In this document: piece after piece, positions 8,528-11,763 of the stretch
How the letters are laid out: every line of letters begins with the position of its first letter
Position numbering within the stretch: the first letter of the stretch is position 1
From: Pseudodesulfovibrio nedwellii
GTDB taxonomy: Bacteria; Desulfobacterota; Desulfovibrionia; Desulfovibrionales; Desulfovibrionaceae
Length of the DNA stretch: 64,000 nucleotides
Assembly: GCF_027923765.1 (NCBI RefSeq)
Contig: NZ_AP026709.1
Location: 1,793,501 to 1,857,500 of the forward strand
Reading direction: 5' to 3'
Made by a program: the position numbers and the translations under genes
The notes under the pieces: model-generated
Databases searched by the model: none
What the model was told of the DNA's origin: nothing
Seen by the model: the letters and a program-made list of their open reading frames with translations, nothing else

Positions 8528-9083
8528 TATTCTGCACCACAAACATAATGGAATTTCTGTTTCCAAAGCCATCATCACGCGTCAACGGCGCCAACGGATC
8601 TGGCACAAGATTCTTTCCATTCACCAAAAAAAGATATTCATGATCGCCAGGCGGCAACTCCGCCTCCAGCACCCATGCTCCAGCTTCAACGCTATACCAC
8701 ATAACAGAACGGTCTGATTTCCATCCATTGAAGGACCCTACTACCGAAACATTCTGAGCGGACATTCCCCCGTCATACATGACAAATTTAACTGTCGACA
8801 GTTGAAGACCGTCCGTACCCGGTGCCGGATTCATCTGAATAAAAGAAAAGGCCAACAGTGCAACGGCCAATGTGACCACAGGAATCACCTGAAACGGACG
8901 AATCGTCATGACCTGCGGTCGGACCAGCCATAAATATATTCGAGTCCAAACAGAAGGGGTCTTCGGGGAAAGCCCTTCCATGACACGCTCTGAAAATCCT
9001 TCAGGCACAGCCGTTTCCGGTGCACGCCGAATACTTTCAATGATAGCATCTTCCATCAGTATTTTCTTTTGTTCATCAGTCAT
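8511..9083 (-). CDS. Membrane protein with anti-sigma-like N-terminus and CBM48/AMPK-type glycogen-binding domain
   Basis: 190 residues from the ATG at 9083, which overlaps the sigma-factor stop by 8 bp. Residues 1-60 are a cytoplasmic, charged region as in anti-sigma factors; residues about 65-86 form one membrane helix (VIPVVTLAVALLAFSFI). Residues about 98-185 match an early-set/CBM48 domain: VSVVGSFNGWK, then W-x-L-E-A-E-L-P-P-G-x-H-E-Y-L-F and a late VPDPLAP. The layout places the sugar-binding-type domain in the periplasm. Direct pairing with an ECF sigma gene suggests it holds or senses for that sigma factor; this is inference. Confidence 0.75.
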   Translation of the reverse strand: MTDEQKKILMEDAIIESIRRAPETAVPEGFSERVMEGLSPKTPSVWTRIYLWLVRPQVMTIRPFQVIPVVTLAVALLAFSFIQMNPAPGTDGLQLSTVKFVMYDGGMSAQNVSVVGSFNGWKSDRSVMWYSVEAGAWVLEAELPPGDHEYLFLVNGKNLVPDPLAPLTRDDGFGNRNSIMFVVQNNEQAL

Positions 9084-9633
9084 TTGAACCCTCGTTGAAT
9101 TGGTGTCGGACCATGTCCAACCCTCTGCTGAGACGCATTTTCGCCCCACTGACCGAAATCTCCAACGTTTCTGCTATTTCACGTACGGAAAAATCATATT
9201 TATATCTGAGAATCAAAGCTTCACGATATTTCACATCGAGCTTCTGCACGAGAATGAAGGCTTTGGCCCCATCCAATCGGGCGTGTATAGCCTGTTGTTC
9301 GTCAATCAAATCTTCATTTCTGACCATAACGGCGGCATCATCGACAAAGACATGCATGTCACGACCTCTTTTCCGAAGCCAATCCCGAGCCACGTTCAAA
9401 GAAACTGAATACAACCAAGGGAAAAAACGTTTCCTCACATTAAAGGTTCCGAGTTTTTCATAGGCACGAGTGAAGGCTTCCTGGGCAAGATCAGCTGCCA
9501 TATCGGTATCGCCCAACATGCGCAGCATGAGATTATACACAGGCCCTTGGTACTCTCGCACCAGAAGTCCAAATGCCTGGGTATCCCCCAAAAGCACTTC
9601 ACGTACTATTTCCGCTTCGCGTATATCTTTCAT
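9076..9633 (-). CDS. ECF (RpoE-type) RNA polymerase sigma factor
   Basis: 185 residues. Sigma region 2 spans about 10-95 (core-binding and -10 reading: YNLMLRMLGDTDMAADLAQEAFTRAYEKL, then FFPWLYSVSLNVARDWLRKRG). Region 4 spans about 125-178 (EALILRYKYDFSVREIAETL and SGAKMRLSRGL, the helix-turn-helix reading -35). It is the first gene of a five-gene operon running down to 5770. ECF factors usually regulate their own operon and are held by an adjacent membrane anti-sigma protein, which fits the CBM48-type gene next door. Confidence 0.92.
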   Translation of the reverse strand: MKDIREAEIVREVLLGDTQAFGLLVREYQGPVYNLMLRMLGDTDMAADLAQEAFTRAYEKLGTFNVRKRFFPWLYSVSLNVARDWLRKRGRDMHVFVDDAAVMVRNEDLIDEQQAIHARLDGAKAFILVQKLDVKYREALILRYKYDFSVREIAETLEISVSGAKMRLSRGLDMVRHQFNEGSND

Positions 9634-9773
9634 TCAAATCCTGATGGACCAAACATGAACTTCAACTCATCTGCACTTAATTATACGCCGCCCAAACCTC
9701 ATTGGTCACAAAACTTGCCCGTCTCTCCGTCCTAAGCTAAATACATACACTCACCATGAAGGAGAACACAATT

Positions 9774-10295
9774 ATGAACATACATGAGAATCCGATCCTT
9801 GATGCCATATTTTCTCGCCGGTCCATCCGTAAATACACGGAAGAGCCTGTTTCACGGCAAGACATCACGACTATCCTCGAAGCCGGTCAGTGGGCTCCCA
9901 GCGGACTGAATAATCAGCCTTGGCGTTTCTTGATCATCACCCGCGATGATCCACGTCATTCCAAACTGGCCAAATGCACCAAATACGCGCATATAGTCCG
10001 CGCTTCTGCAGCATGTATCTGCGTCGTGCTTGAAAAAGAAGCCATGTATAGTGAAATGAAAGATCATCAAGCGGTCGGAGCGTGCATTCAGAACATGATG
10101 TTGGCCGCTCATGCGCTCGGTATAGGCTCGGTCTGGCTCGGTCAAATCGTGAACGATCAGGCAACCTCTCTCGGTGCTCTTGAAATCAATCCCGAAACAT
10201 ACGAACTTCAGGCGGTCATCGCCCTCGGGCATCCCGATCAAAAGGGAAGCTCTAAGCGCAAAGACTTGTCTGAACTCATGCTGGAGGCATTTTAA
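9774..10295 (+). CDS. Nitroreductase family FMN-dependent oxidoreductase
   Basis: 173 residues from the ATG at 9774, preceded by AAGGAG; the upstream ATG at 9756 has no such site. It shows the family's FMN-phosphate motif SRRSIRKYTEEPV (about 13-25), the APSGLNNQPWRFLI segment (about 43-56) and the late GIGSVWLGQ. These enzymes reduce nitro or other electron-poor substrates with NAD(P)H in the cytoplasm. It is the first gene of a five-gene redox operon; its stop overlaps the next start (TAATG). The physiological substrate is unknown. Confidence 0.88.
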   Translation: MNIHENPILDAIFSRRSIRKYTEEPVSRQDITTILEAGQWAPSGLNNQPWRFLIITRDDPRHSKLAKCTKYAHIVRASAACICVVLEKEAMYSEMKDHQAVGACIQNMMLAAHALGIGSVWLGQIVNDQATSLGALEINPETYELQAVIALGHPDQKGSSKRKDLSELMLEAF

Positions 10296-10915
10296 TGACC
10301 ATAAAGACATTCAATCTTGGCCCACTTCAGACCAATTGCTACGTCCTGTCAGGCGAAAAAGAAGCTGTGGTCATCGATCCAGGCGGCAACCCCGCCGAGG
10401 TCGTGGAATATCTCAAGGCCAACAACCTCACCGTGACCCACATCCTAAACACCCATCTGCATTTTGACCACACCGCAGGCAACAGGGAACTTTCAGAAAT
10501 TACGGGCGCCCCGATACTGTGCAGTGAAAAAGATGCCGACCTATTGGACACCTGGCTTGGGCGAGGCGGAGAAAACGGATTGCCACTTCTGGACTCTTAC
10601 GAGTGGCAAAACATCGAGCCGGGAAAAACTCAATTTGCCGGCTTCGACTGCACCATCTTCCACACACCAGGTCACTCCACAGGCAGCCTGACCTTCTATT
10701 TCCCCGAAGCAGGAGCCGCCTTTGTAGGCGATTTGATTTTCTACCGCTCCATCGGACGCACTGACTTCCCCGGCGGAGATCTGGATGTGCTCAAACGGTC
10801 CGTGACCGAGCATATATTCACCCTGCCGCCTGCCACGAAATTGCTGTCCGGCCACGGCCCGGAAACCACTGTTTCCGACGAACAAAGCCATAACTCGTTC
10901 TTTTCGGAGTTTTAA
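10295..10915 (+). CDS. Metallo-beta-lactamase-fold hydrolase (glyoxalase II-like)
   Basis: 206 residues with a full set of metal ligands: the THLHFDHTAG motif (HxHxDH, about 49-58), the HTPGHSTGSL His (about 127-136), the GDLIFYRSIGRTDFPGGD Asp (about 146-163) and the terminal SGHGPETT His (about 186-193). This is the standard two-metal arrangement of glyoxalase II-like thiolester hydrolases and related persulfide enzymes. It overlaps the nitroreductase by one base and is followed without a gap by the selenoprotein (TAAATG), so the genes are translationally coupled. A role in thiol or persulfide chemistry would fit the neighbours, but this is inferred. Confidence 0.88.
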   Translation: MTIKTFNLGPLQTNCYVLSGEKEAVVIDPGGNPAEVVEYLKANNLTVTHILNTHLHFDHTAGNRELSEITGAPILCSEKDADLLDTWLGRGGENGLPLLDSYEWQNIEPGKTQFAGFDCTIFHTPGHSTGSLTFYFPEAGAAFVGDLIFYRSIGRTDFPGGDLDVLKRSVTEHIFTLPPATKLLSGHGPETTVSDEQSHNSFFSEF

Positions 10916-11161
10916 ATGAGTGAACCAATTCTCATAGATATCCGCGACAAATGTTGAGGCGTGGGCATGGAGATAGGTTGGTATCTCCGTTTCGCCAAGG
11001 CCGATGCCATCGAAGCCAAGGTTTCCCTCAAGGGAGCGGCTCAAGTGCGTCATGACGAAAACATCTTTCCGGACTGGAGCTTTGCATTTGAGGAGCATGA
11101 AGACCATGTGGTCGCACGATTAACCCGCAAAAACCCCCTTTTCAACAAAGAGGACACATGA
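10916..11161 (+). CDS. Small selenoprotein with vicinal Cys-Sec motif (in-frame UGA = Sec14)
   Basis: An 81-residue frame from the ATG at 10916, set directly after the previous stop and preceded by GGAG, reading to TGA at 11159-11161. Codon 14 (10955-10957) is an in-frame TGA giving ...IRDKC-U-GVGME... A SECIS hairpin follows the TGA, so this is read as selenocysteine. The Cys13-Sec14-Gly resembles the Cys-Sec pair of animal thioredoxin reductase. Order of strand, Cys, helix, strand, helix, strand loosely recalls TusA/SirA sulfur carriers, whose Cys-Pro would be Cys-Sec here; that link is weak. ATGA overlap with the next reductase gene. A GTG at 10961 would otherwise give a shortened 66-residue protein without the active site. 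Confidence 0.85.
10955..10996 (+). promoter_or_regulatory. Bacterial SECIS element
   Basis: Directly after the TGA: lower stem GGCG (10958-10961) with CGCC (10993-10996), an internal loop, then a perfect 7-bp stem GGAGATA (10969-10975) with TATCTCC (10982-10988) closing the six-base loop GGTTGG. Counting the U of UGA as 1, the loop places G23 and U24 exactly where the E. coli fdhF SECIS has its essential G-U. This is the SelB-binding signal expected for Sec insertion. Confidence 0.85.
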
Positions 11162-11763
11162 CCAAAAGCGTGATCTATGCATGCAGCCACCGACGGGGCG
11201 GCAACTCGGACCGGACGGCCACCCTGCTCGCTCAGGGCGTGGCCGAAGCCGGAGGAGAAGCAAACGTTCTCTACATTCGCAACCACTCTGTCATGGCCTG
11301 CCTTGCCTGTGACTATTGTGCAAAAGCAAAATTCAAACAGGGAATGGCGCGCTGTGTCCTCGGACAGCAGGATGACGCATATGAACTATTCGAACCAATG
11401 CTCACGGCCCGGACCGTATTCTTCACCTCACCTATCTATTTTTACCATCTCCCGTCCCTGTTCAAAACGTGGATCGATCGAAGTCAACAATTCTGGGCAG
11501 CCAAACAACTTGGAGAACCATGGGTTGCAGACCTTCCAAAACGTACGGCTCATGTGGTGCTTCATGCTGGTCGCCCTGCCGGTGACAAACTTTTTGAAGG
11601 AGCACAAGTCACTCTCAAATACTTCTTAAACAACTTCAATTTCACATTGGCTGAACCGCTGATATTCAGAGGTATCGACGAGCAAAATGATATGGAGGCG
11701 CACCCGGATTTCGAACAGCAGATTATCGAACTCGGTCGCACGGCGTGGGCTTCTGCCCAATGA
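11158..11763 (+). CDS. Flavodoxin-fold NAD(P)H-dependent FMN reductase
   Basis: 201 residues starting at ATGA, overlapping the selenoprotein stop. The N-terminal strand-loop YACSHRRGGNSDRT (about 7-20) is the FMN-phosphate loop of the NADPH-dependent FMN reductase/WrbA-like group. A Cys cluster follows (MACLACDYCAKAKFKQGMARC, Cys at about 43, 46, 49 and 61), as in iron-sulfur flavoproteins, and then SPIYFYHLPSLFKTWIDR (about 91-108). The cluster could bind metal or take part in thiol exchange. Its coupling to the Cys-Sec protein suggests the flavoprotein reduces it; this is inference. Overlaps the next gene by 4 bp. Confidence 0.85.
   Translation: MTKSVIYACSHRRGGNSDRTATLLAQGVAEAGGEANVLYIRNHSVMACLACDYCAKAKFKQGMARCVLGQQDDAYELFEPMLTARTVFFTSPIYFYHLPSLFKTWIDRSQQFWAAKQLGEPWVADLPKRTAHVVLHAGRPAGDKLFEGAQVTLKYFLNNFNFTLAEPLIFRGIDEQNDMEAHPDFEQQIIELGRTAWASAQ

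Follow-up and report, generated by a model that had tools for sequence, protein, structure and literature searches.

Is the TGA that interrupts a short reading frame of Pseudodesulfovibrio nedwellii a stop codon or a selenocysteine (Sec) codon, and what would the small protein be for? The frame (10916..11161) lies in the window, that is, the whole analysed stretch of 64,000 nucleotides (G000:C1:1793501-1857500), taken from the single-contig genome G000 (3,762,062 bases); positions below are those of the window unless a contig is named. An earlier note, made from the letters alone, had proposed a small Cys-Sec selenoprotein. The codon in question almost certainly encodes selenocysteine; the sequence comparisons given below leave very little doubt that the gene specifies a true selenoprotein of about 9 kDa, the UGA of which would be translated by the SelB pathway with the aid of a hairpin directly behind the codon. 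To the whole explanation (selenoprotein, TusA/SirA-like fold and mechanism) a probability of roughly 0.7 is given. The gene and its signals are located as follows:

10916..11161, plus strand: selenoprotein gene, 81 residues with Cys13-Sec14 (six-frame and profile searches; predicted beta-alpha-beta-alpha-beta-beta fold, TusA/SirA-like).
10906..10909, plus strand: GGAG, probable ribosome-binding site of the selenoprotein gene (from the sequence).
10952..10954, plus strand: TGT, codon of Cys13 (Cys precedes Sec in 154 of 155 TGA-bearing genomes).
10955..10957, plus strand: TGA, almost certainly read as selenocysteine 14 (conserved in 155 of the 297 genomes sampled from the order).
10958..10996, plus strand: hairpin of the type of the selenocysteine insertion sequence (SECIS) (folding, re-coding test, covariation and loop conservation).
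10961..10963, plus strand: GTG, the type of start picked by gene callers, with loss of the Cys-Sec site (16 database homologues).

The frame consists of 81 codons (10916-11158) and a terminal stop TGA (11159-11161). As had been reported, a single in-frame TGA stands directly after the Cys codon, and the ATG at 10916 is preceded by GGAG. The overlaps claimed on both sides were found downstream, with a flavoprotein gene (ATGA, 11158-11161), but not upstream, where the stop TAA (10913-10915) of a metallo-beta-lactamase-fold (MBL) hydrolase gene merely abuts the ATG. The nearest protein in a named collection, from Pseudodesulfovibrio sp. isolate OB3, is 98% identical. Were the TGA an ordinary stop, the locus would hold a 13-codon leader peptide and, from the GTG at 10961, an independent small protein.

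Relatives were sought in 297 sampled genomes of the order (Desulfovibrionales) by a six-frame search with stops read through; 150 genomes were matched, 149 of them with the TGA in frame, G070 being the sole exception. TAA or TAG was never found at this position (0/150), which argues against a leader peptide. A profile search recovered 150/150 of the fetched six-frame loci, and a later profile of 54 members (alignment A1, which omits five of the 59 representatives) raised the total to 157/297 genomes; the seven added comprise six with the TGA form and G084, which has only a Cys paralogue. The TGA form is present in 155 genomes in total; Sec is preceded by Cys in 154 of these and by Gly in the remaining one (G129). 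This sole GU member found (L191, G129:C13:34045-34263) lies inside the same operon as the others, described below. At 149/149 TGA loci Cys occupies position -1, Asp -6 and Leu +10; 138 loci have Arg at -4, and 132 have Gly at +1. A 395-genome sample of the phylum gave 6 matches, all from the window's own family. The named hosts are mostly Desulfovibrionaceae, which are sulfate reducers.

Sequencing error or a lineage-specific frameshift is ruled out by the TGA in 155 genomes. General recoding of TGA was rejected, the selenoprotein and flavoprotein genes both ending in TGA and the Cys counterparts fitting Sec; phage or mobile origin was rejected after two scans of viral contigs without a relative of the selenoprotein. 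One copy (L068, G196:C1:1705603-1705842) keeps the CU site, has TAA within the conserved region and looks interrupted; the copy in G052:C1 is intact.

All 16 database homologues of the window protein (62-66 residues) begin after the TGA; gene calling from a GTG-type start does lose the Cys-Sec site, as the earlier note foresaw. A start of all homologues after 10957, which it had named as evidence against Sec, holds for these 16 entries but not for the genomes, where homologous sequence before the TGA is present and conserved. Because of this conservation, and because the Cys forms read straight across the site in a single frame, the database starts are regarded as truncations by gene callers, whose habit of starting past the UGA has kept the family hidden. 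In favour of a leader peptide it can be said that starts of this kind are those chosen by gene callers and that a GTG stands two codons past the TGA in 76/149 loci. Against it, codons -6 to -1 are protein-like, with a mean diversity of 0.27/0.19/0.49 at codon positions 1/2/3 (59 representatives), the contrast being weaker further upstream of -6. A Shine-Dalgarno match of at least 4 bases was found for the upstream start in 118/148 loci versus 38/149 for the first start after the TGA, a comparison biased by the choice of the upstream start, which itself favoured such matches. The Cys forms, which cross the site as a single frame, also tell against it.

The stretch behind the TGA folds into the two-part hairpin that had been claimed: outer helix, 10958-10961/10993-10996; inner helix, 10967-10975/10982-10990; apical loop GGTTGG, 10976-10981, with G and U at positions 23 and 24 counted from the U of UGA. 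Its minimum free energy is -17.7 kcal/mol (z -2.74 versus 200 dinucleotide shuffles). For codons +1 to +13 the folding energy was compared with that of 100 synonymous re-codings by locus codon usage, which was taken from long open reading frames of the loci and not from curated genes; mean z was -2.19 over 149 loci (60% of loci below -2), versus -0.75 (149 loci) and -0.33 (148 loci) for two control stretches further downstream in the same gene. Owing to the kinship of these loci, the p-value of the paired comparison does not represent a real probability. Codon +6 is ATA for 36/43 Ile and GTA for 59/89 Val, as compared with 16% and 13% in the long open reading frames; these uncommon codons close the hairpin stem. 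In 131/149 loci at least six of the seven pairs of the inner stem can form, part of the remainder having a shifted stem; G23 of the loop is kept in 148/149 loci and U24 in 112/149. Among 57 distinct representatives, 91.5% of stem cells pair, and five of the seven stem pairs show changes on both sides (28 cells versus a shuffled mean of 3.5). When the partners were slid by 1 to 3 columns, 38-70% paired and the covariation score was 0 to 0.165, versus 0.215 in the true register; the innermost stem pair is unpaired in 19/57 representatives. From these sequence comparisons the hairpin is judged to be selected beyond protein coding.

Homologues with Cys for Sec, sought as the earlier note had suggested, were obtained as two close forms and one remote family. 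The orthologue in G070 reads DLRQACPCTL, with CPC for CU and one residue more at the site, and sits between MBL and flavoprotein genes; in this genome (85% complete) no selA match and a weak tRNA-Sec match were obtained, and in the two congeners searched selA is present and CU is kept. P0018 is a full-length CC homologue of metagenomic origin, represented by a protein record only, in which C may be a database replacement of U. These two are the only Cys forms found close to the Sec family. In 16 genomes a further match without TGA was obtained, and these matches, with the sole match of G084, point to a remote all-Cys family with the motif (C)CGLVP; in the matches whose sequence was read (7 of the 16 and G084; L171, L194-L200) Cys stands in the Sec column in 8/8. 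The profile of this family (alignment A5) matched the Sec family with a probability of 99.4% over 76 columns, the Cys in the Sec column being invariant. With this profile 108 proteins were found; the motif was readable in 104, all with Cys at the Sec position (104/104) and 57 with CC (P0018 included), the residue before Cys being variable. As to the other four, one is cut off immediately ahead of the motif, and three resemble members of the Sec family that have been truncated. At the 8 loci of the all-Cys family checked, no queried operon neighbour was found within about 1.5 kb; the family gave no credible match in Pfam and NCBIfam, and the database names shown are 'hypothetical protein'.

The selenium machinery was looked for in G000, and selA, selB, selD and tRNA-Sec were all found (tRNA-Sec, best E 2.3e-16). 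Over the sample, tRNA-Sec matches were divided by hand into a strong class, at E <= 7.4e-14, and a weak one, at E >= 2.7e-9; the TGA form occurs in 152/254 genomes with a strong match versus 3/43 without (Fisher p 1.7e-11, kinship ignored), these three genomes being 77-82% complete. The curated tRNA-Sec cut-off counts 266/297 genomes; in a control, ordinary tRNAs also gave weak matches. The selD gene of G000 (L043, G000:C1:2702383-2703312, outside the window) holds one in-frame TGA, and the selenophosphate synthetase is probably itself a selenoprotein.

A confident AlphaFold2 model of the protein (predicted beta-alpha-beta-alpha-beta-beta) gave its best fit to TusA/SirA-type structures; on this modelling a TusA/SirA-like fold is probable, and Sec14 is predicted to open helix 1, in the place of the persulfide-carrying Cys of TusA. 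The Asp-to-Sec spacing is 6, and global hhalign sets Sec on the CPxP Cys, at a probability of 13%. The earlier suggestion of a TusA-like fold thus agrees with the predicted structure but has no counterpart in sequence-family matches: for the 54 members PF01206 is not among the Pfam families matched at E <= 1, and the CPxP motif is absent from the Sec family, which has U-G-V-G or variants instead. TusA membership by sequence was rejected. NCBIfam gave, at E <= 0.1 for the 54 members, only two models of rRNA-modification enzymes, each hit by a single member (E 0.08-0.09), and no match to the known CU-family models (KCU-star, HgcA, SaoC, SaoL, MbdU), the presence of each in NCBIfam release 20.0 not having been confirmed one by one. 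Weak single-member matches to unrelated Pfam/NCBIfam models (best E 0.02 to 0.28) were taken as chance; neither database gave a credible model match to the selenoprotein. Two TusA-family (PF01206) CPxP genes are also present in G000 (G000:C1:572243-572431 and 1612618-1612821; one in a 207-residue frame).

The function of the protein has to be considered together with its neighbours:

9774..10295, plus strand: nitroreductase-family flavoprotein, first gene of the module (PF00881, E 7e-28, frame from 9756; close solved relative 3e39, E 7e-62, from 9774).
10295..10915, plus strand: metallo-beta-lactamase-fold hydrolase, glyoxalase II-like (PF00753, E 1.4e-32; solved relatives 7ev5, 7l0b, 2xf4).
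11158..11763, plus strand: FMN-reductase/flavodoxin-like protein with CxxCxxC-x11-C (PF03358, PF02525).

The nitroreductase gene has a further in-frame ATG at 9756; the Cys residues of the flavoprotein motif (Cys48, 51, 54, 66) are encoded at 11299-11355. The redox operon of nitroreductase, metallo-hydrolase and Cys-rich flavoprotein that had been described is real and conserved across the 149 loci: on the same strand, the nitroreductase was found upstream in at least 91, the MBL hydrolase upstream in at least 120 and the flavoprotein downstream in at least 128, all of these being lower bounds, with some loci short or at contig ends. CxxCxxC is present in 127/128 downstream flavoproteins; the gap between the stop of the Sec gene and the flavoprotein start has a median of +1, with overlap in 54/128 (taking the start closest to that stop). 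In 21/149 loci all five queried neighbours were absent, and in 8 the flavoprotein alone was found. A flavoprotein search of 30 genomes gave matches in 30/30 at E <= 0.001, many of them general flavodoxins. In G010 and G004, which have no Sec gene, the gap between the MBL and flavoprotein genes is 5 and 23 bases, with a nitroreductase-like gene before them (by eye). Because these two relatives keep the flanking genes directly adjacent, the operon can do without the Sec gene, and the claim that read-through is needed to maintain the coupled chain was overstated. The module exists without the Sec gene, and some lineages keep the Sec gene without the module; the Sec protein is therefore an accessory of the module.

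Upstream of the operon a divergent gene (9076-9633, minus strand) is sigma-factor-like by eye; its homologue was matched in 26/149 loci, many loci being too short to show it. In L091 and L104, from a lineage without the operon, the Sec gene comes after a small gene, the product of which we take to resemble a GDT1/UPF0016-type membrane protein.

Because the Cys before Sec is near-invariant, a vicinal selenenylsulfide is likely; a site like that of TusA hints at chemistry with sulfane sulfur or disulfides, and flavoproteins as neighbours hint that NAD(P)H is the reductant. The thiol/selenol redox function put forward in the earlier note is an inference, and the protein is probably a Cys-Sec redox or sulfur carrier reduced by the CxxCxxC flavoprotein. 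Sec14 would attack an oxidised or sulfur-loaded substrate (e.g., persulfide, polysulfide, disulfide or electrophile), Cys13 would resolve the adduct with formation of the vicinal Cys-Sec selenenylsulfide, and electrons from NAD(P)H, delivered by the downstream CxxCxxC flavoprotein, would restore the Cys-Sec pair; nitroreductase and MBL hydrolase may work in the same detoxification or thiol-maintenance module. As a whole, the mechanism of attack by Sec14, resolution by Cys13 and reduction by the flavoprotein is the likeliest of those considered but is offered tentatively, its chances being well below even. The proposal that Sec in a TusA fold carries or reduces sulfane sulfur, in a cycle through -Se-SH or a Cys-Sec selenenylsulfide with a dedicated CxxCxxC flavoprotein as the driving partner, is possible and falls somewhat short of an even chance.

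Sec14 might instead hold sulfane sulfur (-Se-SH) and pass it on without any selenenylsulfide cycle, as a selenium-based sulfur carrier. The TusA-like fold, the weak alignment of Sec to the CPxP Cys and hosts that are mostly sulfate-reducing Desulfovibrionaceae would suit this role, as would the persulfide or thiosulfonate that Cys of the TusA family carry (available text of PMC11073785); however, Cys before Sec in 154/155 genomes and two flavoprotein neighbours suggest reduction over simple transfer, the CPxP prolines are missing, and two CPxP TusA-family genes are already in the genome. Such a carrier is considered unlikely. It is decidedly improbable that the protein serves the adjoining MBL hydrolase by carrying a thiol (selenol) ester or adduct, e.g., in aldehyde or glyoxal detoxification: the MBL protein is nearest to glyoxalase II-type hydrolases and precedes the Sec gene in 120/149 loci, but the nitroreductase-MBL-flavoprotein run also occurs without the Sec gene, and 29/149 loci, some at contig ends, gave no MBL match. 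The leader peptide with a separate reading frame was rejected on codon conservation, the Cys forms and the TGA-only site, and hardly any likelihood is left to it.

No earlier description of the family was found in the literature searched, including the available text of PMC13188914, PMC9312934, PMC12013277, PMC1914089, PMC5322559 and PMC2432076, supplementary tables being outside the scope; SirA and TusA have zero occurrences in the main text of a 2026 review and its table of prokaryotic selenoprotein families, as far as available (PMC13188914). In the available text of the deep-Sep paper, 0 new selenoprotein genes are listed for the test genomes Desulfomicrobium orale DSM 12838 and Salidesulfovibrio onnuriiensis IOR2, 'known' ones being counted apart, and selenoproteins without Cys homologues are said to be liable to get filtered out (PMC12013277). 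The Sec family would be prone to such filtering, because the close Cys forms found number two and the larger Cys family is remote. Judged from its sequences, the family appears to be a selenoprotein family of sulfate-reducing bacteria described nowhere that we found, an addition that concerns 155/297 sampled genomes of a sulfate-reducer order. With Sec in the apparent reactive site of a fold typical of sulfur carriers, a selenium-based sulfur relay becomes directly testable; if true, this relay would represent a module for sulfur or selenium in sulfate reducers, of which no earlier description was found.

Among known systems, the bacterial selenoproteins with a CU motif named in the available text of the 2026 review are KCU-star (NF033934), HgcA, SaoC, SaoL, MbdU and CopZ-like form 2 (PMC13188914); adjacent Cys and Sec and a UGA decoded as Sec are common to these and to the present family. 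The all-Cys (C)CGLVP family has in common with the Sec family invariant Asp, Cys/Sec column and Leu, Gly and Trp that are invariant in the Sec family and conserved at 90% or more in the all-Cys family, and a similar predicted fold; unlike the Sec family, it has no Sec and bears a C-terminal tail. The TusA/SirA/YeeD carriers (PF01206) are alike in size (about 80 residues) and in predicted fold, and the reactive residue may likewise stand before helix 1, six after a conserved Asp of strand 1; compared with the C-P-x-P of TusA, the present protein has Sec for Cys, U-G-x-G and an additional Cys directly before Sec. Mammalian thioredoxin reductase carries a C-terminal Gly-Cys-Sec-Gly and shares with the present protein a Gly directly after adjacent Cys and Sec, a pair expected to close into a selenenylsulfide; there the motif is the tail of a large flavoenzyme, whereas here it lies close to the N-terminus of an 81-residue protein of its own, with a flavoprotein encoded alongside.
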